Shown: piece after piece, positions 15,801 through 55,357 of the stretch
Position numbering within the stretch: position 1 is the stretch's first letter
Layout: the number at the start of each line of letters is the position of its first letter
NCBI RefSeq assembly: GCF_013376005.1
Contig: NZ_JABMJK010000014.1
Location: 1-64,000, forward strand
Length of the DNA: 64,000 bases
Direction of reading: 5' to 3'
DNA from: Duganella sp. SG902
Lineage (GTDB): Bacteria; Pseudomonadota; Gammaproteobacteria; Burkholderiales; Burkholderiaceae_D
Made by a program: the position numbers and the translations under genes
Notes under the pieces: model-generated
Seen by the model: only the letters and a program-made list of their open reading frames with translations
The model's database searches: none
What the model was told of the DNA's origin: nothing

Positions 15801-15895
15801 CGTGGGCATCCCTCGGGGAGCGCGCGACCCGCAAACAGGCCGCGCAAGTCCCCGATGATGTCACGATGATTCAGGTGGTTCTTGAGCTTGCGCAA

Positions 15896-21264: not shown

Positions 21265-21266
21265 GG

Positions 21267-33495: not shown

Positions 33496-33704
33496 GGCCG
33501 TGAAAATAAAGGATAAGCGCGAAACCGCATCTTACAGTGTTTCCAGAATACTTATTTCCGGATCAAAAATAGGCGGCGAAACCGCCCCGTCAATCAACGC
33601 TAAGTCATTGTTTTCAGGCCAAGATTTGAGGGCTGAATCGGTGTTTTTTCTCTGGATAAGCCCGTTTGGCGGTACTATATTCTTCCGTCAGGAGAATATT
33701 CAAC

Positions 33705-36700
33705 ATGCCATCTTTAATCCCTGGTTTAACCACCGAACAAATCGCCGGCCTGCAGAGCAATCAGATCGCTTTATTGACGACTGCGGACATCGGCTTGCTC
33801 TCGACCCTGCAGATGACCGCCTGGGGCACGGAGCAGCTCGCCTTCTTCAGCAGCAATCAGATCCGGGCATTGTCGGTGCAGAACCTGCAAACGCTGAGCA
33901 CAGACCAGCTCGGCTACGGATTCAACACGCGCCAGGTGCAGGCGCTGGCCAGCAACCAGTTGACCGGACTGACGACCAACCAGTTGACGGCCGGCCTCAA
34001 TACCGACCAGTTCGCCGCCCTGACCACCGCGCAACTGAACGCCCTGACGGCCAGCCAGTTCGCCATCATCGCCACCGATGACATCGCCGCCCTGCGCACC
34101 GCGCAAGTGGCCGCCATCAACACCAACCTGTTCCACACGCTGACCAGCAAGCAAATCGTCGCCCTGACCTCCGACCAGTTTGCCGCGCTGCAGACCAGCC
34201 AGATCGCCAACCTGACCACGGCGCAGCTGGCCGCGATTGAAACCGAGGACATCGGCGCGCTCGGCACCAGGCAGCTGAACGCGCTCGCCATCACCCAGCT
34301 GGACGCCCTGAGCACCGCGCAGATGGCGGCGCTCAGCACCAAACAGATCGCCAACCTCGGCACGCTGCAGATCAACTCGCTGAGCACGGCGCAACTGGCC
34401 GCCATCGGCACCGACGGCCTGTCCAACCTCAAGACCCAGCAACTGGCCGCGCTCAACACGCAGCAATTCGCCGCGCTCAACAGCGACCAGATCGTCGCCC
34501 TGACCACCGCCCAGGCGGCCGCGCTGACCACCCAGCAATTGGGCCAGATGTCCAGCGCGCAGCTGTCCGCCATGGAGTCGCAAGACCTGCGCGCGCTGAA
34601 GAGCCAGCAACTGGGCGCCCTCGGCACCGCCGCCATCGCGGCGCTGGCCACCGACCAGATCACCGCGCTGACCACCGCGCAAGTCGCGGCGCTGACCAGC
34701 GCGCAGGTGCGCAGCCTGGGCACGGCCCAGATCGTCGCCCTGAGCACGGCGCAAGCCGCCGCATTGACCACGGCGCAAGTGCAGGCCCTGAGCAGCCAGC
34801 AAGTGGCCGCGATGGAGACGCAAGACATCGCCGCGCTGAAGACTGCGCAGCTGAACGCGCTGGGCAGCGCCCAGTTGAACGCGCTCGGCAGCGACCAGCT
34901 GGCGGCCCTGACCACGCAGCAGGCGTCCAACCTGGCCACCCAGCTCATCGCCGCCCTTGGCACCGCGCAAGTGGCCGCGCTGGAACTGCCGGACCTGGCC
35001 GCGCTGAAGAGCCAACAGATCGCCGCCTTCACCACGGCCGGCGTCGCCGCCCTGACCACCGACCAGATCGTCGCCCTGAAGACCGCGCAGACCAACGCGC
35101 TGAGCTCGCAGCAGCTGGCCGCCCTCGGCAGCGACCAGGTGCGCGCGCTGGAAACCCAGGACCTGGCCGCCATCCGCACCAGCCAGCTGAACGGCATCAG
35201 CAGCGCCAACATCGCCGCCCTGGGCACTGATCAGGTGGCCGCGCTGACCACCGCGCAGATTTCCAATTTCAGCAACAGCCAGTTGGCCGCGCTCGACAGC
35301 GACCAGATCATCGGCCTGACCACCCTGCAGGCGGGCGCCCTGACCACCGCGCAGATCGCCGGCCTGAGCAGCGCCCAGGTGGCCGCGCTGGAAACCCGCG
35401 ACCTGCGCGCGCTGAAGACCAGCCAGATCGTGGCCCTGACCACGGCGCAGATCGCCGCGCTGGGCACCGACCAGATCGCCGGGCTGAGCACGCAACAAAT
35501 CGCCGCGCTGACCACGCGCCAGTTCGTCATCCTGAGCACCGACCAGATCGTTGCGCTGAGCACCCAGCACATGGTGGCGCTGACCACCCAGCAGCTGAGC
35601 CAGATGACCAGCACCCAGCTGGCCGCGCTGGAGACCCAGGACTTCGCCGCGCTCAAGAGCCAGCAAGTGGCCGCGCTGGGCACCGCCACCACCTCGGTGC
35701 TGAGCACCGATCAGCTGGCCGCGCTGAGCACCGCGCAAATCGCCGCCATGCCCAGCGCGCAGATCCGCACCCTGAGCACCGACCAGATCGTCGCCCTCAA
35801 CACGGCGCAGATCGCCGCCCTGCAGACCGCGCAAGTCCAGGCGCTGAGCAGCGGCCAGATCGCCGCGATTGAAACCCGCGACCTGGCCGCCATGCGCACC
35901 GCGCAGTTGACCGTGCTGAGCAGCGCACAACTGGCCGCGCTCGGCAGCGACCAGATCGCCGCGCTGACCACGGCGCAGGCATCGAATCTCGGCACCCAGC
36001 AGATCGCCACGCTGAGCACGGCGCAACTGGCGGCGCTGGAAACGCAAGACCTGGCCGCCCTGCGCAGCCAGCAGATCGCCGCCATCAGCAGCGCCGGCAT
36101 CGCCGCGTTGGGCACCGCACAGGTGGCCTCGCTGACCTCGGCCCAGATCGGCGCGCTGCAAACCCGCCAGCTGGCCGCCCTGGATACCGACCAGGTCGCC
36201 GTCCTGAGCGCGGCGCAAGCCGCCGGCCTTGGCACCCAGCAGATCGCCGCGCTGTCGACGCTGCAAGCGGCCGCGCTCGGCACCGACACGCTGTCCAGCC
36301 TGAAAACCCAGCAGATCGCCGCGCTGGCCACCGGCGCCGTGGCCGCGCTGAGCACCAACCAGATCGTTGCCTTGAGCACGCTGCAAGCCAATGCGCTGAG
36401 CTCGCAACAACTGGCGGCGCTGTCGACCGACCAGCTGGCCGCCATGGAAACCCGCGACCTGGCGGCCCTGCGCACCAGCCAGTTGAACGGCTTGGGCACC
36501 GCCGGCATCGCCGCCCTCAGCACCGCGCAAGTGGCCGCGCTGGGCACCGCTTTGCTGTCCAGCCTGACCACGCGCCAGCTGGCCGCGCTCGACAGCGACC
36601 AGATCGTCAGCCTGACCACCGCGCAAGCGGCCTCGCTGACCACGCAGCAAATCGCCAGCCTCGGCACGGCGCAGATCGCCGCGCTGGAAACCGCCGACCT

Positions 36701-39700
36701 GGCCGCGCTGAGGACCGCGCAAATCGTCGCCCTCACCACCGCCCAGCTGGTGGCGCTGGGCACCGGACAAATCGTCGGCCTGAGCTCGCAGCAAGTGGCG
36801 GCGCTGACCACGCGCCAGGTGGCCGCCTTGTCGAGCGACCAGATCCTGTCCCTGCAGGCGTCGGCGCTGGCCGCGCTGCAATCGCAGCAGGTGGCGGCGC
36901 TGAGCAGCAACTCGGTGGCGGCCTTGACCACGGCCCAGATCGCCGCGCTGAGCACCGCCGTGCTGAGCTCGTTCACCACCGGCCAGATCGCCCTGCTGAG
37001 CACCGACCAGATCGTGGCCCTGAGCACGCTGCAAAGCGCCGCCCTGACCACCCGCCAGGTGGCCGCGCTGACCACCGACCAGGTCAACGCGCTGGAGACC
37101 CAGGATCTGGCCGCCTTCAACACGGCCCAAGTCGTCGCGCTGGGCAGCACCCAGATCGGCGCCCTGAACACCGCGCAAATCGCCGGCCTGCGCTCGCAGC
37201 AGGTGGCCGCGCTGGCCACCCGCCAGCTGGCCGCGCTGTCGACCGACCAGGTGGCCGCGCTGGAAACCCAAGACCTGGCCGCCCTCAACTCGCAACAGGC
37301 GCTGGCCCTGGGCAGCAACGCCGTGGCCGCGCTGACCACCGCGCAGGTGGCCGCGCTGACCTCGACCGTGCTGTCCGCCCTGAACAGCACGCAGATCGGC
37401 GCCCTGACCAGCGACCAGATCGTGGCCCTGAGCACCGCGCAAGCCGGCGTGCTGACCTCGCGCCAGGTGGCCGCGCTGTCCACCGACCAGCTGGGCGCGC
37501 TGGAAACGCAGGACCTGGCCGCCTTCAAGACCAGCCAGATCGCCGCCCTCGGCAGCGCGCAGATCGCCGCGCTGAGCAGCGACCAGGCCGCCGCGCTGAC
37601 CTCGCAGCAGGTCGCAGCGCTGAGCTCGCAACAAATCGCCGTGCTGGCCAGCGACCAGATCGTGGTCATGTCCAGTTCCGACCTGGCCGCCCTGCAATCG
37701 AAACAGGTGGGCGCGCTGGCCACCGGCACCCTGGCCGCGCTGACCACCGCGCAAGTGGCGGCGCTGACCAGCACCGTGCTGGCCGCCCTGAACACCGCGC
37801 AAGCCGCCGCCCTCACCACCGACCAGATCGTCGCGCTGGCGACCGCCCAGATCGGCGTGCTGAGCACGGCCGACCTGGCCACGCTGTCCACCGACCAGGT
37901 CAACGCGCTGGAAACGCGCGACTTCGCCGCGCTGAAAACCAGCCAGATCGCGGGCCTGACCTCGGACCAGATCGGTTCGCTGAACACCAGCCTGATCGTG
38001 GCGCTCACCACCAGCCAGGCCGCCGCGCTGACGCTGGCGCAACTGAACGCCCTCTCCACCGACCAGCTGGCCGCGATGGAAACCCAGGACTTCGCCGCGC
38101 TCAAGACCAGCCAGCTGCTGGGCCTGGGCACCAAGGGCCTCGCCACCCTGACGCCGGCCCAGGTGGCCGCGCTGGGCACGGCGCAGATCGTGCAGCTGAG
38201 CTCGGACCAAGTGCAGGTCTTGAGCAGCGCCCAGCTGGCCGCCCTGACCACGGCGCAGGTCGGCGCGCTCACCACCGCCCAGGTCGGCTACCTGCTGACC
38301 CAGCAAGTGGCGGTGCTGACCACCGCCGACTGGGCCGCGCTGAAAACCAGCCAGCTCAACGCGCTGAGCACCAGCCAGATCGCCGCCGTCACCACCGACC
38401 AGATCGTGGCGCTGAGCTCGCAACAGGCCGCCGCGCTCACCACACGCCAGCTGGCCACGTTCTCGACCGACCAGCTGAACGCCATGGAAAGCGCCGACCT
38501 CGGCGCGCTCACCTCGGCCCAGATCGCCAGCCTCGGCACCACCAATATCGCCGCGCTGGAACTGGCCCTGCTGGCCGTGCTGAAAACCCAGCAGACCGCC
38601 GCCCTGACCACCGCGCAAATCCAGGCGCTGGGCACGGCGCAGATCGCCGGCCTGAGCACGCTGCAGGCGTCCAACCTGACCAGCGCGCAAATCGCCGCCC
38701 TCGGCAGCGACCAGGTGCGGGCGCTGGAAACCGCCGACCTCAACGCGCTGAAGAGCACGCAGATCACCGCCCTGGGCAGTGAACAGGTGGCCCAGCTGAC
38801 CACCGACCAGATCGTCGCCCTGAATTCGCAGCAGGTGGCCGCGCTGGCCACGCGCCAGCTGGCCGCGCTCGACAGCGACCAGATCGCCGCGCTGGAAACG
38901 CGCGACCTGATCGCGCTGCAGACCGCGCAAATCGCCAGCCTCGGCACCGACAAGCTGAACGCGCTGACCAGCGCCCAGGTGCAGGCGCTGAGCACGGCGC
39001 AGATCGCCGCGCTGGGCACCAGCCAGTTGCGCAACCTGAGCACCGACCAGGTGGCCGCCCTGAACACCCTGCAAATCAGCAACCTGCTGACCGCGCAGAT
39101 CGCCGCCCTGACCACCGACCAGCTGGCCGCCTTCGGCACCCACGACCTGGCCGCGCTGAAGACCTCGCAAATCGCCGCGCTGACCACCGGCCAGATCAGC
39201 GAACTGAGCACCGACCAGATCGCCGCCCTGAACGCGCAGCAAGTGGCGGCCCTGAGCAGCCGCCAGTTGAACGCGCTGACCACCGACCAGATCGTGGCGC
39301 TGGAAACGCGCGACCTGATCGCGCTGACCACGGCGCAGATGAGCAGTCTCAACACCGACAGCCTGAACGCCCTCACCAGCACGCAGCTGCAGGCGCTGGG
39401 CACGGCCCAGCTCGGCGCCCTGAGCACCGGCCAGCTAGGCGCGCTGGACACCGCGCAGATCGCGGCGCTGAGCACGCTGCAGGCGTCCAACCTGAGCACC
39501 GCCCACATCGCCGCGCTGAGCAGCGACCAGTTGCAAGCGCTGGAAACGCAGGACCTGGCCGTGCTGAAAACCGCGCAGATCGCCGCGCTGGGCACGGCGC
39601 AGATCAGCCTGTTGAGCACCAACCAGATCGTGGCCCTGAATTCGCAGCAAGTGGCTGTCCTGAGCAGCCGCCAGCTGGGCGCGCTGACCAGCGACCAGAT

Positions 39701-42700
39701 CGTGGCCATCGAAACGCGCGACCTGGCGGCGCTGACCACGCTGCAAATCGCCGGCTTCAGCACCGACAACCTGAACGCGCTGACCACCGCGCAATTGCAG
39801 GCGCTCAACACGGCGCAGATCGCCGCCCTGAGCAGCAACCAGCTGCGCGCGCTGGACACCGCCCAGATCGTCGCCTTGAGCACGCTGCAGGCGTCCAGCC
39901 TGACCTCGCAACAAATCGCCGCGCTGACCAGCGACCAGCTGCAAGCGCTGGAAACCGCCGACTTCGCCGCGCTGAAAACCGCGCAGCTGGCGGTCCTGTC
40001 CACCAGCCAGATCGGCCTGCTGAGCAGCGACCAGATCGTCGCACTGACCACCCAGCAGATCGCCAGCCTGAGCACGCGCCAGCTGGCCGCGCTGGAAACC
40101 AGCCAGGTGATCGCGATTGAAACACGCGACCTGGCCGCCCTGACCACCGCGCAAATGAGCGGCCTCGGCAGCGAAAGCCTCAACGCCCTCGGCAGTGAGC
40201 AGGTACGCGCCCTGAACAGCGCCCAGCTGAACGCCCTCAACAGCGCGCAACTGCAGTCCTTGTCCACCGCGCAAGTGGCGCTGTTGAGCACCGCCCAGGC
40301 GACCAACCTGAGCACCACGCAAGTCCAGCTGCTCGGCAGCGACCAGCTGGTCGCCCTGGGCACCGACACCCTGGCCGTACTGAAAACCCAGCAGGTCGCC
40401 GCCCTGAAAACCAGCCAGATCGCCAGCCTCAACGCCGCGCAGATCGCCGCGCTGAGCACCCTGCAGGTCAGCAACCTCGGCACGCAGCAAGTGGCCGCGC
40501 TCGGCACCGACCAGCTGAACGCGCTGGAATCGCAAGACCTGCAAGCGCTGCGCACGGCGCAGATCGCCGCGCTGGGCACCAGCCAGATCGCCGGCCTGAG
40601 CACCGGGCAGGCCGCCGCCCTCAGCACCCTGCAGATCAGCAACCTGAGCACCACGCAACTGGCGGCGGTCGGCAGCGCGCAACTGCAAGCGTTCTCCACC
40701 ACCGACATCGTGGCGCTGAAGACCGCGCAAGTGACGGCGCTCACCACCAGCCAGCTGGACGCCCTGCTGAGCGACCAGTTCCGCGCCCTCAACACGGCGC
40801 AGATCAACGCGCTGGGCACGGCGCAATTCCAGTCGCTGGGCAGCGAGCAGATCGTGGCCCTGACCACGCTGCAGGCCGCCAACCTCAACTCCGCGCAACT
40901 GCAGGCGCTCAGCGCCAGCCAGCTGGCCGCGCTGGAAACCGAAGACCTGGCGGCGATGAAGACCGCGCAAGTCAACGCCTTCAAGACCAGCCAGATCGTC
41001 CTGCTCAACAGCGATCAGATCGCCGGCCTGAGCACGCTGCAAGTGTCGACCCTGGCCTCGCAGCAAGTGGCCGCGCTGGGCACCGCCCAGGTGCAGGCGC
41101 TGGAAACCCAGGACCTGGCCGCGCTGAAGACGGCGCAACTGCAAGTGCTGGGCAGCGACCAGCTGGACGCCATCACCACCACCCAGCTGCAAGCGCTGAC
41201 GGCGGCCCAGCTGGCGTCGCTGGCCACGGCGCAGATCCAGGCGTTGCTGACCACGCAGATCGCCGCGCTGACCACGCAACAAGTGGGCGCCCTGGCCACC
41301 GGCCAGATCGCCAGCCTGAGCACCAGCCAGCTGGCCGCCTTCACCACCGATGAAATCGCCGCGCTGAAGAGCGCGCAGGTGGCGTCGCTGCTGACCGCGC
41401 AAGTGGTGCGCCTGAGCACCGACCAGGTATTCGCGCTGACCAGCAACCAGGTGGCCGCCATGACCACCGGCCAGCTGTCCTCGCTGAGCTCCGACCAGGT
41501 GGGCGCCTTCGGCACCGAGGACCTGGCCGCGCTGAGCGCCGCGCAACTGGCCGCGCTCGGCTCGCTGGCCAACCTCAGCACCGACCAGATCCAGGCCCTC
41601 ACCACGGCCCAGATCGGCGGCCTGACCACGGCCCAGATCGCCGCGCTGAACACCGCGCAAATCGTCGCCCTGACCACGCGCCAGATCGGCGCCCTCAGCA
41701 CCAACGGCGTTGGCGTGCTGAGCAGCGACCAGCTGAAAGCGCTGGAACTGGAAGACTTGGCCGCGATGAAGACGTCGCAGATCAACGCCCTGAGCACCAC
41801 CCAGGTGACGCAGCTGAGCACCGACCAGATCGCCGCCCTGACCACGCTGCAGTTCGGCACCCTGCTGACGCAGCAGGTGGCCGCGCTCGGCACCGCGCAG
41901 ATCAAGGCCCTGTCGGCCGACGACATCGCGGCGTTGAAAACCGCGCAAGCCGCCACCCTCGGCAGCGACCAGCTCGGCGTGCTGTCCGACCTTCAGGTGC
42001 AAGCCCTGTCCGGCACCAACCTGAACGCCCTCGGCAGCGCGCAAGTGCGGGCGCTGAGCACCGACCAGATCGTCGCCCTGACCACGCAGCAATACGCCCT
42101 GCTCGGCAGCGCGCAAGTGGCCGCCCTCAGCACCAAGCAACTGAGCGCGATCGAGCAGGATGACCTGGCCGCGCTGAAAACCGCCCAGATCGCCATCCTC
42201 GGCACCGACCAGATCCAGGCGCTGGCGCCGGACCGCATCGCCGCGCTGACCACCGCGCAGGCGCAGGCGCTGAGCAGCACCCAGCTGCAGGCGCTGGGCT
42301 CGGCCCAAGTGCAGGCGCTGAGCACGGCCGACCTGTTCGCGCTGAAGTCGGCGCAGATCGCCGCCCTCAACACCAACCAGCTGAACGCGCTGCTGGACTA
42401 CCAGCTGCAAAGCTTCGGCCTGGTCCAACTGGGCGCGCTCAGCAGCACGCAGCTGCAGGCGCTCGGCAGCGACCAGATCATCCAGCTAACCACCACGCAG
42501 TACGGCTACCTGACCACCGCGCAGGTCGCGCTGCTGACCACCGCCCAGCTCGGCGCCATCGAGCTGGAAGACCTGGCCGCGCTCAAGACCGCGCAGTTGC
42601 TGGCCCTCGGCAGCGACCAGATCCAGTCGCTGACGGTGGACCGCATCGCCGCGCTGACCACGCTGCAGGCCCAGTCGCTGGCCACCCAGCAACTGGCGGT

Positions 42701-45700
42701 GCTGACCACGGCGCAAGTGCAGGCGCTGGAAACCGACGACCTGGCCGCGCTGAGATCCAGCCAGCTGCAGGCGCTGAGCAGCGCCCAGCTCAACGCGCTG
42801 AGCTTCAGCCAGGTGCAAAACCTCGGCAGCGCCCAGTTGAACGCCCTGACCAGCGCGCAATTCCATGCCCTGGGCAGCGACCAGATCATCGCCCTCAGCA
42901 CCACGCAAGCCAGCCAGCTGGCCAGCGCGCAGTTGATCGCGCTGAGCTCCGACCAACTGGCCGCGCTGGAACTGGAAGACCTGGCCGCGCTGCTCAGCAA
43001 CCAGATCGCCGCGCTGACCACGCAACAGTTCAGCCAGCTCGACCTGGCGCACGTCGGCGCGCTGACCACGGCGCAAGCCATCGCCGTGACCACGGCGCAA
43101 CTGGCGGCGCTGTCCACCAGCCAGTTCCAGGCGCTCAGCACCGACAACCTGGCGGCCCTGAAAACCGCGCAGATCGCCGCGCTGACCACCAACCAGCTGA
43201 TCACGCTGACCCAGGACCAGCTGCAAAACCTGACCACCGACCAGATCGACGCGCTGACCTCGGCCCAGGCCTCGTCGCTGACGACCGACCAGATCGCCTC
43301 CCTGACCTCGACCCAGGTCGACAACCTGGGCACGCGCCAGTTGAACGCGCTGACCAGCGCGCAGATCGCCGCCATCAGCACCGACAACTTCACCACGCTG
43401 TCGAGCGTGCAGATCGGCGCGCTCAACGCGGCCCAGTTCGGCGCCATCACCACCGACCAGATGGTGGCCCTGAGCAGCGAACAGGCCGTGGCGCTGACCA
43501 CCGCGCAGATCGCCGCATTCAGCAGCGACCAGCTGGACGCGCTGGAAACGCGCGACTTCGTGGTGCTGAAAACGGCGCAGATCGCCGCCATCAGCGCTGC
43601 CAACGTGGCGGCGCTGACCACCGACATCGTCAGCGTGCTGACCACCGCGCAGTTCGCCGGCCTGAACACCGACCAGATCGCCGCCCTGCAGACCGACCAG
43701 ATCGTGGCGCTGACCAGCGCCCAGGTCACCACGCTGAGCTCGGCCCAGATCGGCGCCCTCAGCCCTGATCAGGTGAGCGCGTTGGCGACCGAAGACTTCG
43801 TCTCGCTGCGCAGCAGCCAGCTGGCCGCCTTCAACACCGCGCAGTTCGCGGCGCTGACCAGCGACCAGCTGAACGCGCTGTCCACCAGCGCCTTCACCGC
43901 GCTGACCACGGCCATGCTGAGCCAGCTGACCGCCAGCCAGTTCAGCCAGCTGAGCACGGCGCAGATCGGCGCCCTGACCACGGCGCAGGCTGTGTCGCTG
44001 AGCACCGACCAGCTGGCTGCGCTGACCAGCGACCAGTTCCCGGTCCTCAGCACCAGCGCCATCCGTGTGTTGCAGTCCGACCAGTTCGGCGCGCTGAGCA
44101 CCGATCAGATCGTGGCGCTGGCCACCCAGCAAGTGCGCGCCCTGAACAGCATGCAACTGGGCGGCCTGACCACCGACCAGGTGGCGGCGCTGGAAACCCG
44201 CGACCTCGCGGCCTTGACCACCGCGCAACTGAACCTGCTGAACACCGACCAGGTGCAGGCACTGCTGACCGACCAGCTGGCCTCGCTGTCCACCGCGCAG
44301 CTCAGCACCCTGAGCACCGACCAGATCAGCGCCGGCCTCAACACCGACCAAATCGTCGCCCTGACCACGCAGCAAGCCGCCGCCCTGGCCACCAAACAGG
44401 TCGCGGCCCTGACCACCGACCAGATCGTCGCGCTGGAAACGCAGGACTTGTCCTCGTTCAGCACGCGCCAGATGGTGGCGCTGACCAGCGACCAGGTGAG
44501 CGCGCTGCGCAGCGACCAATTGAACGCGCTGACCACGGCCGAACTGGCCGCGCTCACCACCAGCCAGCTGATCAACGGTCTGAGCACCGACCAGCTGGTG
44601 GCGCTGGACACCGCCCACCTGAACGCGCTGACCACCAACCAGCTGACCTACGGCATCAGCAGCGACGCCATCGCCACGCTGACCACCGACCAGCTGCAAT
44701 CGCTGCGCACCGCGCAGACCGCCTACCTGGGCACGGCGCAGGTGGCCGCGCTGACCACCGACCAGATCGTCGCCCTGAGCAGCCAGCAGGTCGCCACCCT
44801 GACCACCCAGCAGGTGACCTCGCTGACCACCGACCAGATCGTCGCGCTGGAAACGGCCGACCTGGCCTCGTTCACCACGCGCCAGATGGTGGCGCTGAAC
44901 ACCGACCAGGTGGCGGCCCTGACCAGCGACCAGTTGAACAGCCTGACCACCACCGAGCTGGCGGCACTCACCACCAGCCAGCTCAGCCTCGGCCTCACCA
45001 CCGACCAGCTGGTCACGCTGGATAGCGCCCACATCAGCGCGCTGACCACCAACCAGCTGGCCTACGGTGTCGGCGTGGCGTCGATCGCCGCCTTGACCAC
45101 CGACCAGATCCAGGCGCTGCGCACCACGCAAGCGGCGACCCTGACCACGCTGCAAGTGCAGGCGTTGACCACCGACCAGATCGTCGCGCTGACCACCGCG
45201 CAGGCGTCCACCCTGAGCACCCAGCAGGTCGCGTCGCTGACCAACGACCAACTGGCCGCGCTGGAAACGGCCGACCTCAACGCCTTCAGCACGCGCCAGG
45301 TGGTGGCCCTGCAGGTCACCCAGGTGGCCTCGCTGAGCAGCGACCAGCTGAACAGCCTGAGCACCACGCAACTGACGGCGCTGACCACCAACCAGCTCGT
45401 CAACGGCCTCACCAGCGGGCAGGCACGCGCGCTGAGCACCGACCAGATCTACGCCCTCAGCACCCAGCAGCTGGCCTACGGCTTCAGCGTCGACAACCTG
45501 AACGCGCTGACCAGCGACCAGATCCAGTCGCTGCGCACCGTGCAGATCGCCGGCCTGACCACGCTGCAGGCGAGCGGCCTGAGCACCGACCAGATCGCGG
45601 CGCTGGCCACCGCGCAGATGACCGGCCTCAACACCGCGCAAATGCAGGCGCTGACCGGCGACCAACTGGCCGCCATCAACACCGCGCAGCTCGCCGCGCT

Positions 45701-47516
45701 CGACACCCAGGACCTGGCCGCGCTGAGCGCCAGCCAGTTCACCGGCCTCAGCACCGACCAGACCGTGGCGCTGACCACGGCCCAGGTGCGCGGCCTGAAG
45801 ACGCTGCAAATCAACGCCATCGGCGCCAGCCAGATCGGCGTCTTCACCAGCGACCAGCTGCAGGCGCTGAGCACCCAGCAGGCCGCCGCGCTGAGCGTGG
45901 ACGCCGTCACCGGCCTCTCGACCGCGCAGCTGAACGTGCTGACCACGGCCGACGTCGCCGCGCTGGGCACGCTGCAGATCTCCAGCATCGACACCGCCAA
46001 GCTGGTCGGCCTGAACACCGACCAGATCCAGGCCCTGACCAGCGCGCAACTGGGCGCCATCACCAACGACCAACTGATCGCCTTCGGCACCGGCCAGGTC
46101 GCGGCGCTGCGCACCGCGCAGATCGGCTACCTGAGCACCATCCAGCTGGGCGCGCTGACCAACACCCAGGTGCAGGCGCTGACCACCGACCAGATCGCCT
46201 CGATCAAGCTGACCCAGATCCCGGCGCTGACCGTCGATCAAATGGGCGTGCTGCAAAGCGACCAGCTGCGCGCGCTGACCACTGGCCAGATCCAAACGCT
46301 GTCGGCCTCGCAGCTGACCGCGTTGAGCAGCGCCCAGGCCGGCGCCCTGACCACGGCGCAGATGGGCGCGCTGAAGGTGGCCCAGATCAGCACGCTGGAC
46401 GCGACCCAGATCAACGGCTTCAGCACCGACCAGCTGGGCGCGTGGAGCACCACCCAGTTCGGCGCGCTGACCAACGCCCAGATCGGCTACCTGTCGACCG
46501 ACCAGATCGCCGGCCTGACCACCACGCAAGTGGCCGGCATCAAGACCAGCCAGCTGATCGTGTTCAGCAACGCCCAGCTGCAAGCCTTCACCGCCACCCA
46601 GGTGCCGGCGCTGGCCACGGCCGGGCTGACCTCGCTGAGCGTGGCGCAGGCCGACGCCTTCAGCGGCGCGCAGGTGGCGGCAATGTCGGTCACGCAGACC
46701 ATGGCGCTGCCGTCCGGTTCGGTGAACTACGCCACCCCGCTGATCCTCGACCTGGACGGCAATGGCGTACAAACCCTGAGCATCGCGGCCGGCGTGCAGT
46801 TCGACATCCGCGGCGAAGGCAAGCCGGTGCAGACCGGCTGGGTGGACGCCCGTGACGGCCTGCTGGCCCTGGATCGCAACGGCGACGGCGTCATCAACGA
46901 CGGCGGCGAACTGTTCGGCGGCGCCACCACGCTGGCGGACGGCGGCAAGGCGGCCGACGGCTACAGCGCCCTGCGCGCGCTGGACAGCAACGGCGACGGC
47001 CAGATCACCAGCGCCGACAGCGCCTACGCTGCCCTGCGCGTGTGGGTGGACGGCAACTCGGACGGCATCAGCCAGACCGGCGAGCTGAAAACCCTGGAGC
47101 AGCTCAACATTGCCGCCATCAGCACCCAGGCCGACCACGCGCTGGCCCAGCAAAACGGCAACATCGTGGGCCTGACGTCGAGCTACACCAGCACCGACGG
47201 CAGCGTGCACGCCAGCGCCGACGTCTGGTTCCTGGCGCAAAAACAGGCGGCAACATCCACTGCCACCTTGCAACAGCAGGTGTCGGGCCTGAGCCATGCG
47301 ATCGGCGGCTACGCTGCCGCGGACGCGGCACCTGCGGCGCAAACGCAACAGCTGGACGTGCTGAAGCCTGCGGCCGGCGTGGATACGCAGACGCTGAGCG
47401 ACGCCCTCAAGCACTACAGCGCCGCCCAGGGCCTGCAAGGCCTGACCGCCGTCTTCACCGGCAAGCCGCAACAACAGGAGCACGCCACCAGTTGGTTCGC
47501 CGCCCCGAACCGCTAA
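33705..47516 (+). CDS. Giant octapeptide-repeat protein with C-terminal calcium-binding loops
   Basis: A protein of about 4,603 residues. Residues 8 to about 4,335 are some 540 uninterrupted octads of the form L-[TS]-[TS]-x-Q-[IVL]-x-A, for example LTTAQIAALSTDQIVA. An acidic octad (LETQDLAA type) recurs every seven or ten octads and is nearly always followed by LKTxQ. From about 4,340 a non-repeat domain starts with LILDLDGNGVQTL, then EF-hand-like loops DRNGDGVIND, DSNGDGQIT and DGNSDGIS, as in the C-termini of large RTX-type adhesins. No Sec signal and no membrane segment; with the calcium loops this suggests type I or other one-step secretion (inference). No RTX nonapeptides and no transporter genes are nearby. 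GGAG lies ten bases before the ATG at 33705. Function is not known to me: surface adhesin, matrix or S-layer-like fibre are the obvious guesses. Confidence 0.88.
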   Translation: MPSLIPGLTTEQIAGLQSNQIALLTTADIGLLSTLQMTAWGTEQLAFFSSNQIRALSVQNLQTLSTDQLGYGFNTRQVQALASNQLTGLTTNQLTAGLNTDQFAALTTAQLNALTASQFAIIATDDIAALRTAQVAAINTNLFHTLTSKQIVALTSDQFAALQTSQIANLTTAQLAAIETEDIGALGTRQLNALAITQLDALSTAQMAALSTKQIANLGTLQINSLSTAQLAAIGTDGLSNLKTQQLAALNTQQFAALNSDQIVALTTAQAAALTTQQLGQMSSAQLSAMESQDLRALKSQQLGALGTAAIAALATDQITALTTAQVAALTSAQVRSLGTAQIVALSTAQAAALTTAQVQALSSQQVAAMETQDIAALKTAQLNALGSAQLNALGSDQLAALTTQQASNLATQLIAALGTAQVAALELPDLAALKSQQIAAFTTAGVAALTTDQIVALKTAQTNALSSQQLAALGSDQVRALETQDLAAIRTSQLNGISSANIAALGTDQVAALTTAQISNFSNSQLAALDSDQIIGLTTLQAGALTTAQIAGLSSAQVAALETRDLRALKTSQIVALTTAQIAALGTDQIAGLSTQQIAALTTRQFVILSTDQIVALSTQHMVALTTQQLSQMTSTQLAALETQDFAALKSQQVAALGTATTSVLSTDQLAALSTAQIAAMPSAQIRTLSTDQIVALNTAQIAALQTAQVQALSSGQIAAIETRDLAAMRTAQLTVLSSAQLAALGSDQIAALTTAQASNLGTQQIATLSTAQLAALETQDLAALRSQQIAAISSAGIAALGTAQVASLTSAQIGALQTRQLAALDTDQVAVLSAAQAAGLGTQQIAALSTLQAAALGTDTLSSLKTQQIAALATGAVAALSTNQIVALSTLQANALSSQQLAALSTDQLAAMETRDLAALRTSQLNGLGTAGIAALSTAQVAALGTALLSSLTTRQLAALDSDQIVSLTTAQAASLTTQQIASLGTAQIAALETADLAALRTAQIVALTTAQLVALGTGQIVGLSSQQVAALTTRQVAALSSDQILSLQASALAALQSQQVAALSSNSVAALTTAQIAALSTAVLSSFTTGQIALLSTDQIVALSTLQSAALTTRQVAALTTDQVNALETQDLAAFNTAQVVALGSTQIGALNTAQIAGLRSQQVAALATRQLAALSTDQVAALETQDLAALNSQQALALGSNAVAALTTAQVAALTSTVLSALNSTQIGALTSDQIVALSTAQAGVLTSRQVAALSTDQLGALETQDLAAFKTSQIAALGSAQIAALSSDQAAALTSQQVAALSSQQIAVLASDQIVVMSSSDLAALQSKQVGALATGTLAALTTAQVAALTSTVLAALNTAQAAALTTDQIVALATAQIGVLSTADLATLSTDQVNALETRDFAALKTSQIAGLTSDQIGSLNTSLIVALTTSQAAALTLAQLNALSTDQLAAMETQDFAALKTSQLLGLGTKGLATLTPAQVAALGTAQIVQLSSDQVQVLSSAQLAALTTAQVGALTTAQVGYLLTQQVAVLTTADWAALKTSQLNALSTSQIAAVTTDQIVALSSQQAAALTTRQLATFSTDQLNAMESADLGALTSAQIASLGTTNIAALELALLAVLKTQQTAALTTAQIQALGTAQIAGLSTLQASNLTSAQIAALGSDQVRALETADLNALKSTQITALGSEQVAQLTTDQIVALNSQQVAALATRQLAALDSDQIAALETRDLIALQTAQIASLGTDKLNALTSAQVQALSTAQIAALGTSQLRNLSTDQVAALNTLQISNLLTAQIAALTTDQLAAFGTHDLAALKTSQIAALTTGQISELSTDQIAALNAQQVAALSSRQLNALTTDQIVALETRDLIALTTAQMSSLNTDSLNALTSTQLQALGTAQLGALSTGQLGALDTAQIAALSTLQASNLSTAHIAALSSDQLQALETQDLAVLKTAQIAALGTAQISLLSTNQIVALNSQQVAVLSSRQLGALTSDQIVAIETRDLAALTTLQIAGFSTDNLNALTTAQLQALNTAQIAALSSNQLRALDTAQIVALSTLQASSLTSQQIAALTSDQLQALETADFAALKTAQLAVLSTSQIGLLSSDQIVALTTQQIASLSTRQLAALETSQVIAIETRDLAALTTAQMSGLGSESLNALGSEQVRALNSAQLNALNSAQLQSLSTAQVALLSTAQATNLSTTQVQLLGSDQLVALGTDTLAVLKTQQVAALKTSQIASLNAAQIAALSTLQVSNLGTQQVAALGTDQLNALESQDLQALRTAQIAALGTSQIAGLSTGQAAALSTLQISNLSTTQLAAVGSAQLQAFSTTDIVALKTAQVTALTTSQLDALLSDQFRALNTAQINALGTAQFQSLGSEQIVALTTLQAANLNSAQLQALSASQLAALETEDLAAMKTAQVNAFKTSQIVLLNSDQIAGLSTLQVSTLASQQVAALGTAQVQALETQDLAALKTAQLQVLGSDQLDAITTTQLQALTAAQLASLATAQIQALLTTQIAALTTQQVGALATGQIASLSTSQLAAFTTDEIAALKSAQVASLLTAQVVRLSTDQVFALTSNQVAAMTTGQLSSLSSDQVGAFGTEDLAALSAAQLAALGSLANLSTDQIQALTTAQIGGLTTAQIAALNTAQIVALTTRQIGALSTNGVGVLSSDQLKALELEDLAAMKTSQINALSTTQVTQLSTDQIAALTTLQFGTLLTQQVAALGTAQIKALSADDIAALKTAQAATLGSDQLGVLSDLQVQALSGTNLNALGSAQVRALSTDQIVALTTQQYALLGSAQVAALSTKQLSAIEQDDLAALKTAQIAILGTDQIQALAPDRIAALTTAQAQALSSTQLQALGSAQVQALSTADLFALKSAQIAALNTNQLNALLDYQLQSFGLVQLGALSSTQLQALGSDQIIQLTTTQYGYLTTAQVALLTTAQLGAIELEDLAALKTAQLLALGSDQIQSLTVDRIAALTTLQAQSLATQQLAVLTTAQVQALETDDLAALRSSQLQALSSAQLNALSFSQVQNLGSAQLNALTSAQFHALGSDQIIALSTTQASQLASAQLIALSSDQLAALELEDLAALLSNQIAALTTQQFSQLDLAHVGALTTAQAIAVTTAQLAALSTSQFQALSTDNLAALKTAQIAALTTNQLITLTQDQLQNLTTDQIDALTSAQASSLTTDQIASLTSTQVDNLGTRQLNALTSAQIAAISTDNFTTLSSVQIGALNAAQFGAITTDQMVALSSEQAVALTTAQIAAFSSDQLDALETRDFVVLKTAQIAAISAANVAALTTDIVSVLTTAQFAGLNTDQIAALQTDQIVALTSAQVTTLSSAQIGALSPDQVSALATEDFVSLRSSQLAAFNTAQFAALTSDQLNALSTSAFTALTTAMLSQLTASQFSQLSTAQIGALTTAQAVSLSTDQLAALTSDQFPVLSTSAIRVLQSDQFGALSTDQIVALATQQVRALNSMQLGGLTTDQVAALETRDLAALTTAQLNLLNTDQVQALLTDQLASLSTAQLSTLSTDQISAGLNTDQIVALTTQQAAALATKQVAALTTDQIVALETQDLSSFSTRQMVALTSDQVSALRSDQLNALTTAELAALTTSQLINGLSTDQLVALDTAHLNALTTNQLTYGISSDAIATLTTDQLQSLRTAQTAYLGTAQVAALTTDQIVALSSQQVATLTTQQVTSLTTDQIVALETADLASFTTRQMVALNTDQVAALTSDQLNSLTTTELAALTTSQLSLGLTTDQLVTLDSAHISALTTNQLAYGVGVASIAALTTDQIQALRTTQAATLTTLQVQALTTDQIVALTTAQASTLSTQQVASLTNDQLAALETADLNAFSTRQVVALQVTQVASLSSDQLNSLSTTQLTALTTNQLVNGLTSGQARALSTDQIYALSTQQLAYGFSVDNLNALTSDQIQSLRTVQIAGLTTLQASGLSTDQIAALATAQMTGLNTAQMQALTGDQLAAINTAQLAALDTQDLAALSASQFTGLSTDQTVALTTAQVRGLKTLQINAIGASQIGVFTSDQLQALSTQQAAALSVDAVTGLSTAQLNVLTTADVAALGTLQISSIDTAKLVGLNTDQIQALTSAQLGAITNDQLIAFGTGQVAALRTAQIGYLSTIQLGALTNTQVQALTTDQIASIKLTQIPALTVDQMGVLQSDQLRALTTGQIQTLSASQLTALSSAQAGALTTAQMGALKVAQISTLDATQINGFSTDQLGAWSTTQFGALTNAQIGYLSTDQIAGLTTTQVAGIKTSQLIVFSNAQLQAFTATQVPALATAGLTSLSVAQADAFSGAQVAAMSVTQTMALPSGSVNYATPLILDLDGNGVQTLSIAAGVQFDIRGEGKPVQTGWVDARDGLLALDRNGDGVINDGGELFGGATTLADGGKAADGYSALRALDSNGDGQITSADSAYAALRVWVDGNSDGISQTGELKTLEQLNIAAISTQADHALAQQNGNIVGLTSSYTSTDGSVHASADVWFLAQKQAATSTATLQQQVSGLSHAIGGYAAADAAPAAQTQQLDVLKPAAGVDTQTLSDALKHYSAAQGLQGLTAVFTGKPQQQEHATSWFAAPNR
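33726..46690 (+). repeat. About 540 tandem 24-bp coding repeats
   Basis: In-frame 24-bp units encoding the octapeptide run without interruption over roughly 13 kb. Units differ at the DNA level but keep CTG-ACC/AGC-ACC-GCG-CAG-ATC type codons. A few units carry a 27-bp variant with an extra glycine codon (near the start and again near 44.3-45.5 kb). Higher-order spacing of 168 and 240 bp is visible through the acidic units. Confidence 0.9.
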
Positions 47517-47584
47517 CGTCATCCCGGCGAAAGCCGGGATCCATGGCACGCTCAGCATGGATTCCGGCTTTCGCCGGAATGACG
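47517..47584. repeat. Dispersed inverted repeat (CGTCATnCCGGCGAA family), copy 1
   Basis: Two nearly complementary arms of about 29 bases (starting CGTCATCCCGGCGAAAGCC and ending in the complementary GGCTTTCGCCGGAATGACG) surround a ten-base spacer. The left end abuts the TAA of the giant repeat gene. A second member lies at 55255-55357. Confidence 0.85.
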
Positions 47585-47659
47585 TAACTGGTGAATGGTT
47601 GAGCAGCGGGGGTTTTACAGTCTTGCTCCAGAGCCAAAAGTTGCCCCTTACCCAGCGAC

Positions 47660-47688
47660 AAAAAGGTATGATAGGGCCTACCTTTTTT
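47660..47688 (+). other. A/T-flanked hairpin upstream of the glycosyltransferase gene
   Basis: AAAAAGGTA and TACCTTTTT form a 9-bp stem with a ten-base loop, followed by one more T. It resembles an intrinsic terminator for the giant gene, and it also contains TATGAT, a 5/6 match to a -10 hexamer, so it could instead be part of the promoter region of the gene at 47710. Confidence 0.4.
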
Positions 47689-47709
47689 GGTTCGTTCCCA
47701 AGCTCAGCT

Positions 47710-50700
47710 ATGACCGTACAAGCCCCCGCAGCACCCGTTCCCGATAACAGCCCGCTGGGCACCGTCATGGGCATGGCCGCCCAGGGCGTTCTTTCCATCG
47801 GCGACCTGTTCGGCGCAGCGGCTGTCCTGCAGGAAAGCGGGCAGTTGCCGGCCGCCATTGCCCTGTACCGCACCTGGATCGAGCACACGCCGTCGCCGCT
47901 GGCCTATGCCGCCTGCTTCAACCTGGCCGTGGTGCTGTCCAATGCCGGCGACGACGCCGGCGCCGAGGCCGTGCTGCGCAAGGCCATGGCGCAAAACCCG
48001 CATTTCGTCGAGGCCCGCCTCAACCTGGGCACCCTGCTGGAACGCACCGGCCGCCCGGACGACGCGCTGGCCATGTGGAAGTCCATCCTGTCCGACCCGA
48101 TCGAACCGGATATCAAGACCAACACCACGCTCTACATCCAGACCCTGAACAACCTTGGCCGCCTGCTGGAAATCCAGAAGCGCTACCCGGAAGCGGAAGC
48201 CATGCTGGCCCTCAGCCTGCGCGTCGATCCGCAACAGGCCAATGTGATGACGCACTGGGTCCACCTGCGCCAGAAGCAGTGCGAATGGCCGGTGTACGCC
48301 GGCCTGGAACACATCTCGGTCGCCACCATGATGGAAGGCACCTCGGCGCTGGCCATGCTCAGCGCCTCGGCCGACCCGGCCATGCAGCTGGCCGCGGCCA
48401 AGCGCTTCGTCAACGAAAAGATCAACGCCGCCGTGGCGCCGCTGACCGGCGCCCACGGCTATGGCCACAACCGCCTGCGCATCGGCTACCTGTCCTCGGA
48501 CTTCTGCTCGCACGCGGTGTCCATCCTGACCGCCGAACTATATGAGCTGCACGACCGTAACAAGTTCGAGGTGTACGCCTTCAGCTGGAGCCGCGAGGAC
48601 GGCTCGCCGATCCGCGCGCGCGTGGTCAAGGCCATGGACCACTACATCCGCATCGATAAACTGAGCGACGAGCAGGCCGCGCGCACCATCCGCGCCCACG
48701 AGATCGACATCCTGGTCGACCTGCACGGCTTGACGCTGGGCGCGCGCCCGCAGATCCTGGCCTACCGCCCGGCGCCGGTGCAGCTGACCTACCTCGGCTT
48801 CCCCGGCAGCACCGGCCTGCCCGGCATCGATTACGTGATCGCCGACGAATTCCTGATCACGCCGGAGATGACCGAGCACTTCACCGAGAAGCCGCTGTAC
48901 CTGCCGGACTGCTTCCAGATCAACGACCGCCAGCGCGCCATCGCGCCCAAGCCGACCCGCGCCTCGGTCAACCTGCCGGAAGACGCGTTTGTCTTCTGCT
49001 CGTTCAACAACAACTTCAAGTTCACGCCCGACCTGTTCGAGGTCTGGATGAACATCCTGCGCCGCGTGCCGAATTCGGTCCTGTGGCTGGTGGCCGATTA
49101 TCCGGAAGTGCGCGAGAACCTGTTCCGCTACGCCGAGCAGGCCGGCATCGACCGCAATCGCCTGATCTTCAACACCCGCGCGGTGCCGGCCGAATACCTG
49201 GCGCGCTACCAGCTGGCCGACCTGTTCCTGGACACCTTCCCGTTCAACGCCGGCACCACCGCCAGCGACGCCCTGTGGGCCGGCCTGCCGCTGCTGACCT
49301 GCGCCGGCCAGACCTTCTCGTCGCGCATGGCGGGCAGCCTGCTGCGCGCGGTCGACCTGCCGCAGCTGATCACCTACAATTTCGCCGACTACGAAGAGAA
49401 GGCGGTGGAACTGGCCAACAACCCGCAGCGCATCGCCGCCATGAAGCGCCAGCTGCAGGCCAACCGCATGACCTGCGCGCTGTTCGACAGCCCGCGCTTC
49501 GTGCGCAATATGGAGGCGGCGCTGCTGAAGGTGGCCAAGCCGGCCGCGCCGCGCCTGGCCACGCCGGCGCATGCGGTGCGGCCGTCGGAAGAGTCGCCGG
49601 CCGCGCCAGTGCGCATCGACCAGATCCCGATCGTGGCCGTGTCCTACAACGCGCCGGACCTGATCGAAGCGCTGCTGCGCACCCTGCGCCAGCACTACAC
49701 CAACCGCGTCTACATCATCGACGGTTCGAATCCGGACGTGGCGGAGCAGATCCGCGCCATCACGGACGGCCATGAGAATGTGGAGTTCATCCCCTTCGGC
49801 TACAACATCCACCACGGCCCCGGCATGTCGTGGGCCATCAACCACCTTGGCCTGTCGGGCGAGGTGCTGTTCCTGGATTCCGACGTCGAGATCCTGAAAG
49901 CCGGCTTCCTGGAATCGCTGCACAGCCATCTGAAGCCGGGCATGTACGGCGTCGGCAATGTCCAGTGGGTCAACGAGTCGGGCCACAGCCGCGAGGCCGG
50001 CACTGCGGACGCCATCCCTTATCTGCACCCGGCCTGCATGCTGGTGAACGTGGAAGTGATGCGTCAGTGGCCGCTGCCGATCAAGCACGGCGCGCCGCTG
50101 CTGCCGGCCATGATCGCGCTGCACCAGGCCGGCGCCTCCAATCTGCTGCAAGGCGTGGACTGGGTGCGCGATGACTTCAGCCGCGAGCCGAAACGCCACT
50201 ACATCAAGCATGACTGGCAAGGCACCGTGATCCGCACCGGCGGCTATCACTACGACCTGCCCAGCAGCGGCGGCGAATTCAATGCCGACCTGCTCGGCCT
50301 CGTGCCGACCAACGCGCGCAAAGTGGTGGAACTGGGTTGCCGCGACGGCTCCTTCGCAAAAGCCTACCGCGCCCGCAACCCGCTGGCCAACTACACCGGT
50401 ATCGAGGCCGATCCGGCGCCGGCGCAAGCCGCGCGGCCGCACTGCGACTTCGTGTTCAACGAGCATATCGAACAAGCCGGCGCCGACCTGTGGGACCACG
50501 TGCGCGGCGCCGATTGCTGGGTGCTGGACGAAGCGCTGGAAACGCTCGACGATCCATGGAGCCTGCTGCAAAAAATCCGCACCAACATCGCACCGGGCGG
50601 CAAGATCGTGGTCGCCCTGCGCAACTTCCAGCACTGGAGCATGCAGGCGCGCCTGAACGCCGGCGACCTGCGCTACGGCCCTGGCGGCATCGAGAAGGCC

Positions 50701-50916
50701 AGCAAGCGTATCTTCACGCGCGGCGTGATGCTGGAGATGCTGCAGCAGAGCGGCTTCCAGATCAGCGGCGGCAGCGCGCGCATCGTTGACGAGCCGGCAC
50801 GTGAAAAATACCTGCCGGCCATCCGCATGATGGCCGGCGCCAGCGGCGTCGATCCGGTGGTGGCGGTGGAGGATGCGCTGCCGTGGCAGTACATCATGAT
50901 CGCCGTCGCCGCCTGA
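47710..50916 (+). CDS. TPR-GT41 (SPINDLY-type O-GlcNAc transferase-like)-GT2-like-methyltransferase fusion
   Basis: A 1,068-residue fusion. Residues 40-190 are TPR-like (FVEARLNLGTLLERTGRPDDAL). About 255-600 is a GT41 catalytic domain: LRIGYLSSDFCSHAV, VDLHGLTLGARPQI, QLTYLGFPGSTGLPGIDYVIAD, and FPFNAGTTASDALWAGLPLLT for nucleotide-sugar binding. About 638-830 resembles GT2 (IPIVAVSYNAPDL, VLFLDSDVEIL). About 870-1,060 is a SAM methyltransferase (VVELGCRDGSF). GT41 enzymes glycosylate Ser/Thr (or Asn) of proteins in the cytoplasm. The start at 47710 excludes the inverted repeat upstream. It is the first gene of a six-gene plus-strand glycosylation operon and directly follows the giant Ser/Thr-rich repeat gene, a possible acceptor (inference). 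Confidence 0.9.
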   Translation: MTVQAPAAPVPDNSPLGTVMGMAAQGVLSIGDLFGAAAVLQESGQLPAAIALYRTWIEHTPSPLAYAACFNLAVVLSNAGDDAGAEAVLRKAMAQNPHFVEARLNLGTLLERTGRPDDALAMWKSILSDPIEPDIKTNTTLYIQTLNNLGRLLEIQKRYPEAEAMLALSLRVDPQQANVMTHWVHLRQKQCEWPVYAGLEHISVATMMEGTSALAMLSASADPAMQLAAAKRFVNEKINAAVAPLTGAHGYGHNRLRIGYLSSDFCSHAVSILTAELYELHDRNKFEVYAFSWSREDGSPIRARVVKAMDHYIRIDKLSDEQAARTIRAHEIDILVDLHGLTLGARPQILAYRPAPVQLTYLGFPGSTGLPGIDYVIADEFLITPEMTEHFTEKPLYLPDCFQINDRQRAIAPKPTRASVNLPEDAFVFCSFNNNFKFTPDLFEVWMNILRRVPNSVLWLVADYPEVRENLFRYAEQAGIDRNRLIFNTRAVPAEYLARYQLADLFLDTFPFNAGTTASDALWAGLPLLTCAGQTFSSRMAGSLLRAVDLPQLITYNFADYEEKAVELANNPQRIAAMKRQLQANRMTCALFDSPRFVRNMEAALLKVAKPAAPRLATPAHAVRPSEESPAAPVRIDQIPIVAVSYNAPDLIEALLRTLRQHYTNRVYIIDGSNPDVAEQIRAITDGHENVEFIPFGYNIHHGPGMSWAINHLGLSGEVLFLDSDVEILKAGFLESLHSHLKPGMYGVGNVQWVNESGHSREAGTADAIPYLHPACMLVNVEVMRQWPLPIKHGAPLLPAMIALHQAGASNLLQGVDWVRDDFSREPKRHYIKHDWQGTVIRTGGYHYDLPSSGGEFNADLLGLVPTNARKVVELGCRDGSFAKAYRARNPLANYTGIEADPAPAQAARPHCDFVFNEHIEQAGADLWDHVRGADCWVLDEALETLDDPWSLLQKIRTNIAPGGKIVVALRNFQHWSMQARLNAGDLRYGPGGIEKASKRIFTRGVMLEMLQQSGFQISGGSARIVDEPAREKYLPAIRMMAGASGVDPVVAVEDALPWQYIMIAVAA

Positions 50917-50945
50917 CGCCTGTTACCGAATACACGGACTTTTAC

Positions 50946-51839: not shown

Positions 51840-52262
51840 ATGTCCCACCTTGACGAAGCCCGGCTGATCGACCTGCCCAAGTTCCACGACCCGCGCGGCA
51901 ACCTGTCGGTGATCGAGGGCGGACATCACGTCCCCTTCGACATCAAGCGCGTGTACTACCTGTACGACGTGCCGGGCGGCTCCTCGCGCGCCGGCCACGG
52001 CCACCTGCACCTGCAGCAGTTCTTCATCGCCATGTCGGGCAGTTTCGACGTCATCGTGGACGACGGCTACAACCGCAAGAAGATCCACCTGAACCGCTCC
52101 TACTACGGCCTGTACGTGCCCGGCATGATGTGGCGCGAGGTGGAGAACTTCTCCTCGGGCGGCGTGTGCCTGGTGCTGGCCTCGACCCACTACGACCCGT
52201 CCGACTACTATTTCGACTACGACGAATTCGTGGTCGCCGCGCGCAATCATCACCCTACCTGA
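51840..52262 (+). CDS. dTDP-sugar 3,4-ketoisomerase, FdtA/QdtA (WxcM-like cupin)
   Basis: A 140-residue cupin. LPKFHDPRGNLSVIEG near the start, RVYYLYDVPGGSSRAGHGHLHLQQFF near residues 37-62 with the active-site histidines, and VPGMMWREVENFS later are family hallmarks. FdtA/QdtA convert dTDP-4-keto-6-deoxyglucose to the 3-keto isomer that the adjacent aminotransferase aminates. GGAG precedes the ATG. FdtA and QdtA differ in product stereochemistry, which I cannot decide from motifs alone. Confidence 0.88.
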   Translation: MSHLDEARLIDLPKFHDPRGNLSVIEGGHHVPFDIKRVYYLYDVPGGSSRAGHGHLHLQQFFIAMSGSFDVIVDDGYNRKKIHLNRSYYGLYVPGMMWREVENFSSGGVCLVLASTHYDPSDYYFDYDEFVVAARNHHPT

Positions 52263-54707: not shown

Positions 54708-54708
54708 G

Positions 54709-55254: not shown

Positions 55255-55357
55255 CGTCATTCCGGCGAAGGCGGACGGTCCGCCGCTGCGGTCCATGGAA
55301 TATATGCTTTAACACGGCGGATGCGTTCTATGGATTCCAGCCTTCGCCGGAATGACG
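55255..55357. repeat. Dispersed inverted repeat (CGTCATnCCGGCGAA family), copy 2
   Basis: The outer arms CGTCATTCCGGCGAAGG and CCTTCGCCGGAATGACG are exact complements, with about 70 bases of partly structured sequence between them. The left end abuts the TAA of the GNAT gene and the right end is five bases before the stop of the convergent ligase gene. It probably also serves as terminator for both operons. Confidence 0.85.

Follow-up and report, generated by a model that had tools for sequence, protein, structure and literature searches.

What does a bacterium build from an open reading frame (ORF) that is almost entirely octapeptide repeat? The question is raised by positions 33705..47516 (plus strand) of a 64,000-nucleotide stretch of Duganella sp. 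SG902 DNA (contig NZ_JABMJK010000014.1, positions 1 to 64,000; hereafter the window), which encode a giant ALTTAQ-repeat protein, paralogue A, of 4,603 residues counted from ATG. Across its relatives this giant octad protein recurs with a glycosyltransferase of family 41 (GT41) and a type I exporter, a trio that is new within the reach of our searches. The recurring context points to a mass-glycosylated secreted fibre, and we consider it fairly likely that the giant is O-glycosylated in the cytoplasm and secreted by type I export. The glycosylation, the residues modified, the sugar, the export and the role are all our reading of the repeat, its predicted fold, the identity of the C-terminal module, the gene neighbourhood, the co-occurrence and the GT41 tree described below.

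Giant ORF and its octad array

The ATG at 33705 is preceded by a ribosome-binding-like AGGAGA (33690..33695, plus strand) nine bases upstream; a TTG at 33666 is an alternative start of the same ORF. Octads were parsed with a circular eight-state profile trained on the paralogue A protein itself, giving 537 complete octads over residues 8-4335 (33726..46709, plus strand) with 10 register shifts and a score of 5543, against at most 18 in five shuffled copies. A first-pass annotation made from the letters alone had described about 540 octads in a protein of some 4,600 residues, an observation that the parse bears out. The exact pattern that it gave matches just 112 places, the remaining octads being close variants. 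The consensus is L-[TS]-[TS]-x-Q-[LIV]-x-A, with L at position 1 in 86% of octads, T/S at position 2 in 53% and at position 3 in 88%, Q at position 5 in 79%, L/I/V at position 6 in 83% and A at position 8 in 65%.

A higher-order period overlies the octads. Those with Asp at position 5 (for example LETQDLAA) mostly recur at 7- or 10-octad spacing, and the strongest long period in paralogue A is 17 octads (136 residues). The long periods of paralogues D, C and B are 134, 216 and 217 residues, respectively; the 216- and 217-residue units repeat at 63% (C) and 77% (B) identity, which suggests recent expansion in these two genes (L010/L011). The assembly carries a run of N inside paralogue C. Opposite the array of paralogue A, ORFs of 1,823, 997 and 1,800 residues lie on the minus strand (33771-47888); they are probably a by-product of GC-rich repetitive codons.

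By profile comparison, the octad repeat belongs to an existing Pfam family, PF20080 (ALTTAQ repeat), with 2736.8 bits against a curated cut-off of 26.4 and 164 matching stretches. The five Pfam matches of the giant at E up to 1 include neither an ice-nucleation family nor the RTX-type glycine/aspartate-rich nonapeptide family, and NCBIfam profiles gave zero matches at the same limit. The sole clear sequence relative in the Protein Data Bank is 9zem, "HeliScrew4" (E 9.7e-18 and 6.6e-15), which, judged from its name and idealised sequence, is probably a designed protein. The first-pass annotation knew of no characterised protein with this repeat. The family and the solved structure qualify that statement; it stands in that no paper naming ALTTAQ, PF20080 or HeliScrew was found in the literature within reach, with most subscription journals and bioRxiv preprints outside it, and in that no paper bringing together giant proteins, O-glycosylation, type I secretion and Massilia or Duganella came up, while none of the other papers listed was recognised as treating the ALTTAQ family.

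A scan with a repeat segment confirmed 153 relatives, of which the best 80 were kept and gave 75 loci with flanks of at most 10 kb; some genomes contributed two loci, so that 75 loci do not equal 75 genomes. The relatives are mostly Betaproteobacteria (Duganella, Rugamonas, Massilia, Aquabacterium and Sphaerotilus), the others being Pseudomonas, Methylomonas, Rhodobacter, Rhizobium, Sinorhizobium, Nitrospirillum and one Spartobacteria metagenome-assembled genome. A viral or phage origin was considered and rejected: a viral-contig scan with the C-terminal part gave no relative, and fold matches in BFVD were weak.

Predicted fold of the octads

We predicted the structure of residues 1674-2081 with AlphaFold2, the alignment consisting of eight further stretches of paralogue A. 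The mean predicted local distance difference test score (pLDDT) was 95 and the predicted template modelling score 0.80; confidence was similar in four of the five models and poor in the remaining one (34.6). Each octad forms one helix of five or six residues, and because of this single short helix per octad the array is predicted to be a continuous all-alpha solenoid. The continuous solenoid anticipated by the first-pass annotation is supported by this prediction. Its 16-residue, ice-nucleation-like coil was not, since there is one helix per octad, and a beta-solenoid of such coils was rejected on the helical model.

The nearest solved folds in a Foldseek search were mesothelin (top), then armadillo proteins, with scores that do not separate kinship from a common arrangement. 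The mesothelin ectodomain is likewise a short-helix fold, at template modelling (TM) scores of 0.19-0.45 in rows with E up to 0.001. HeliScrew4 was not among the fold matches listed (structure library up to April 2026). In sequence HeliScrew4 has octads of the giant's type and keeps T/S at position 2; it differs in being only 120 residues long and in having Pro at position 3 in 10 of the 11 octads of the alignment, where the natural proteins mostly have Thr/Ser.

C-terminal calcium module

Four EF-hand-like loops follow residue 4335, as the first-pass annotation had read from the sequence. In a model of the last 374 residues, residues 112-285 are confident and the tail is poor. The confident part is a calcium domain whose fold is that of the self-processing module of FrpC (46725..47246, plus strand): Foldseek matched it to FrpC structure 6sjw with E 8.6e-18, 46% identity and a TM score of 0.83 of the target, and the sequence match to the FrpC module (E 2.9e-38) aligns all four loops. 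The FrpC module has four calcium sites, and its Asp414-Pro415 bond is cut through the Asp side chain, according to the part of the source consulted (PMC7078468). In the giant, Thr (46737-46739, plus strand) stands ahead of the conserved Pro, where FrpC has its scissile Asp. Among 52 ALTTAQ family members, whose domain starts were located by a pattern that itself required Pro, the preceding residue is T in 33, S in 19 and D in 0, and the position equivalent to FrpC D478 is Gly in the giant. Because of these replacements self-cleavage is not expected, and the alignment leads us to expect a calcium-folding cap rather than a clip-and-link module.

The calcium domain is present in 45 of the 75 relative loci; it was not found in the alphaproteobacterial relatives, whose proteins finish in octads where the end was read. 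The low-confidence tail beyond it in the giant (47247..47513, plus strand), ending ...SWFAAPNR, is a candidate type I secretion signal. A last stretch of the form G-hydrophobic-LA-x-P-x-K/R is shared by the C-termini of 26 of 69 ALTTAQ relatives, and other C-terminal groups finish in PLI/PLL or within octads.

GT41 enzymes and type I exporters beside ALTTAQ giants

Directly downstream of paralogue A lies a gene for a TPR, GT41 and methyltransferase protein with a weak GT2-like match (47557..50916, plus strand). Its PF13844 match reaches 289.7 bits against a cut-off of 25, and the enzyme aligns with human OGT, XcOGT and SPINDLY. Lys488 (codon 49018-49020) aligns with the human OGT lysine in YKIDP, which we take to be Lys842, and this active-site lysine is retained in all six GT41s checked. 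Lys842 is named as catalytic in human OGT in the part of the source consulted (PMC4683255).

The 6.8-Mb genome (47 contigs) contains at least five further ALTTAQ genes: paralogues B and C on the window's contig (C14), D on C2, and E and F on C5. Its three GT41 genes (E up to 0.001) all lie on C14 between paralogues A and B, the two beyond the first encoding further TPR-GT41 proteins. Right after paralogue B come a HlyB-like gene (TIGR01846) and an HlyD gene (TIGR01843; 314.2 bits, above the cut-off of 208.65). This pair, recurring beside some relatives, lends plausibility to secretion without a Sec leader, as first proposed from the letters alone.

Among the 75 relative loci, GT41 was found in 28, an HlyB-like match in 11 and an HlyD-like match in 10. 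The HlyB match starts 200-320 bases past the giant in seven loci (L044, L050, L055, L057, L065, L069 and L080). GT41 genes occur in four relative orientations, upstream or downstream and on the same or the opposite strand. In Pseudomonas viridiflava (L029) GDP-mannose dehydratase-type genes come first, followed by a methyltransferase, the giant, GT41 and a TolC/HlyD/ABC set in convergent orientation; Rhizobium anhuiense (L085) has the giant, then GT41, then UDP-galactopyranose mutase. As these neighbours differ, the sugar genes next to the giant-GT41 pair vary by species. The locus of Duganella sacchari (L027) contains the giant together with a GT41 that is 98% identical over the columns compared.

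Co-occurrence and phylogeny of GT41

At a threshold of E 1e-9, GT41 was present in 18 of 18 ALTTAQ genomes against 61 of 127 others among 145 genomes of the family (Fisher p 1.2e-5), and in 8 of 8 against 120 of 390 among 398 genomes of the phylum (p 1e-4); both p-values are too small because related genomes are not independent. Six of the eight ALTTAQ genomes of the phylum sample come from one family. The window's genome was counted in each sample, which leaves 25 distinct genomes behind the rule that ALTTAQ comes with GT41. The search misses some carriers, because two loci chosen as ALTTAQ-free (L124 and L149) hold octad ORFs; their genomes (G108 and G134) both have GT41, and including them among the carriers would raise the co-occurrence by two. 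A Caulobacter control had a PF20080 match at E 0.001 and none at 1e-9, and was therefore not used.

We built a tree of 90 GT41 domains by a quick method, dropping hits shorter than 850 bases or with a stop. Linkage to ALTTAQ or flagellin meant a neighbour within 8 kb; two GT41 rows of the island at L009 that lie past 8 kb were relabelled by hand as ALTTAQ-linked, the window's own row was also set so, and three rows with both ALTTAQ and flagellin-type neighbours were placed on the ALTTAQ side. The flagellin linkages are a minimum count, because three of the four flagellin-type queries were recovered, one of them resembling FlgL. The main group of 45 rows (support 89; an inner 41 rows, 96) spans alpha-, beta- and gammaproteobacteria and holds 33 of the 39 ALTTAQ-linked GT41s, together with 9 of the 11 labelled as having ALTTAQ elsewhere or out of range. 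Of the 9 flagellin-linked GT41s, 8 sit in a separate group of 19 rows (support 100) that contains zero ALTTAQ-linked ones. None of 500 shuffles clustered equally well, a result that near-copies help.

The downstream sugar island

Four further genes with sugar-related assignments follow the TPR-GT41 gene on the plus strand: a GT2 glycosyltransferase (50883..51830), an FdtA-like protein of the WxcM C-terminal type, by family a sugar ketoisomerase (51840..52262), a DegT/DnrJ sugar aminotransferase (53595..54707) and a GNAT acetyltransferase, a candidate sugar N-acetyltransferase (54655..55254). A metallo-beta-lactamase-fold protein is encoded between the FdtA-like and DegT genes. Two palindromes resembling repetitive extragenic palindromic (REP) elements face each other immediately past the giant's stop codon, in the gap before the GT41 gene (47517-47542, minus strand, and 47559-47584, plus strand). 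The palindrome, GGATTCC..TTCGCCGGAATGACG, has three matches in the window (the third at 55332-55357), with zero expected by chance. The start of the TPR-GT41 gene is uncertain, its first codons overlapping the REP-like element.

A proposed path for the giant

OGT/SPINDLY-type GT41 enzymes modify Thr/Ser in the cytoplasm. In our proposal the unfolded chain would be O-glycosylated there on many Thr/Ser by the TPR-GT41 enzyme encoded downstream, the donor being an amino-deoxy sugar that the FdtA, DegT and acetyltransferase genes may supply. For flagellin, such O-glycosylation in the cytoplasm ahead of export, carried out by FlmG, is documented in the part of the source consulted (PMC7591256). The chain would then leave C-terminus first through a type I system, for which the HlyB/HlyD pair next to paralogue B, on the contig of paralogue A, is the candidate. 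Outside the cell, calcium would fold the FrpC-like C-terminal module, from which the octads would start to fold as a long rod of stacked short helices, one per octad, with the sugars on its surface. The product is probably a surface or matrix fibre serving adhesion, aggregation or a protective coat. We regard as evenly balanced the broader proposal that a dedicated OGT/SPINDLY-type subfamily, found across classes, has the ALTTAQ giants as its natural substrates, which would be glycosylated on hundreds of Thr/Ser in the cytoplasm, exported by type I secretion and folded outside into a sugar-coated all-alpha rod.

Octad composition bears on the acceptor sites. In 100 proteins with 27,989 octads (the six paralogues and those plus-strand ORFs of the loci that have 25 octads or more, kept where 20 or more octads were parsed), the median T/S fraction is 0.90 at position 3 and 0.66 at position 2. 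The fold seems not to need T/S at position 3, since HeliScrew4 has Pro there, which would leave the place free for another use.

Several observations weigh against this path. T/S at position 3 falls to 0.27 in one protein, paralogues E and F have 0.61 and 0.62, and these residues may act as helix caps. The surroundings of gene A itself yielded no type I genes; the HlyB-like match after paralogue B (638.7 bits) is below the NCBIfam cut-off of 725.55; and just 11 of the 75 loci have an HlyB-like match at all. GT41 lies within 2.5 kb in just 16 of 63 assessable loci, namely those with at least 2.5 kb of sequence beside a gene end, so that a locus is not counted if its GT41 runs past the edge of the sequence retrieved. 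Besides the inflated significance of the co-occurrence, the tree has its exceptions: six of the 39 ALTTAQ-linked GT41s fall outside the main group, one (L084) on a very long branch; the main group includes one flagellin-linked GT41 and two GT41s whose genomes yielded no ALTTAQ; and three ALTTAQ-linked rows also have a flagellin-type gene within 8 kb. One of those two genomes (G106, L105) is a single contig, an exception to the pairing in the direction from GT41 to ALTTAQ. The ALTTAQ-free rows were drawn solely from the window's family; for this reason the placing of ALTTAQ-free alpha- and gammaproteobacterial GT41s is not read from the tree, and the breadth of the ALTTAQ group beyond that family is less firmly supported.

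These points bear on rival explanations. The giant could be type I-secreted yet unglycosylated, the GT41s being part of an island for surface polysaccharide or for glycosylation of flagellin that only happens to accompany the giant genes. The frequency of GT41 in family genomes without ALTTAQ, the wealth of sugar genes in the island and the flagellin-linked GT41s, three of them also near ALTTAQ, would fit this; yet not one of the 25 distinct ALTTAQ genomes found at E 1e-9 lacks GT41, the linkage holds across alpha-, beta- and gammaproteobacteria in varying orientations, the ALTTAQ-linked GT41s form a largely separate group and the window's contig yielded no flagellin-domain gene (such genes lie on C2, C9 and C22), so that we judge it unlikely. 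Alternatively, the giant could form a fibre or sheath associated with the flagellum and exported together with it or on it. Paralogue D (L012/L013, L104; C2 566-596 kb) brings this to mind: it is flanked by fliR and the flgJ region and has two flagellin-N-domain genes in its vicinity, at distances of about 1 kb and about 21 kb. However, among the ORFs scanned around A, B, C, E and F we recognised none as flagellar, FliR and FlgJ had zero matches in the 75 relative loci at E 1e-5, and the recurring transporter genes are of type I; we find this explanation highly improbable.

The frequency of armadillo-like folds among the solved fold matches listed would suit a cytoplasmic scaffold, a solenoid binding partners inside the cell, to which we likewise give very little credence. 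Finally, the C-terminal module might still process itself by a Thr/Ser-Pro variant of the chemistry and attach the fibre to a surface amine through a covalent bond. In favour of this, the calcium loops have been retained and all 52 members carry T or S ahead of Pro; but the mechanism proposed for FrpC uses the Asp414 side chain, as far as the part of the source consulted goes (PMC7078468), and the D478 counterpart is Gly, which makes such processing very doubtful.

The closest known systems each share some features with the giant or with the path proposed for it. PF20080 describes the same octads, but as a repeat family only. The FrpC module (6sjw, 6sjx) has the fold and four calcium loops in common with the giant, and differs in its scissile Asp. 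HMW1C is a GT41-type enzyme. The HMW1/HMW1C pair resembles our proposal in that a glycosyltransferase serves one large adhesin, but it modifies Asn instead of Thr/Ser and uses two-partner secretion, according to the part of the source consulted (PMC3012730). FlmG of Caulobacter, the model for our proposal of O-glycosylation in the cytoplasm, has an N-terminal TPR region and a C-terminal transferase, whereas its substrate is flagellin and its route flagellar export, as the consulted part of its source describes (PMC7591256); flagellin-linked GT41s mostly fall in another group of our tree. SiiE and MpAFP are giant and repetitive and involve calcium, like the ALTTAQ giant, and SiiE is type I-exported, but in the portions of the sources consulted they consist of Ig-like beta domains in place of octad helices.

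Other features of the window

Upstream of the giant, a Vsr endonuclease gene adjoins one for a C-5 cytosine DNA methylase (4267-6156). Type VI secretion genes for PAAR, a Tle1-like phospholipase effector, VgrG and TssF occupy 7130-15809 on the minus strand. A flavocytochrome c sulfide dehydrogenase flavoprotein is encoded at 17715-18980 (minus strand), and a Cytochrom_C match lies at 20800-22641.

Significance

The first-pass observation is confirmed and its interpretation partly supported; what it had missed is the glycosyltransferase link, the FrpC-type module and the higher-order octad period. A repeat family of unknown function, accompanied by GT41 in every genome in which it was found at the threshold used, becomes a concrete substrate to test. 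If the proposal is true, the giant would represent a new architecture for a bacterial surface fibre, all-alpha and sugar-coated, and an all-helical fibre built from octads would join the bacterial surface repertoire. It would also provide a natural scaffold with evenly spaced Thr/Ser, alongside a solved protein of the same octad type.
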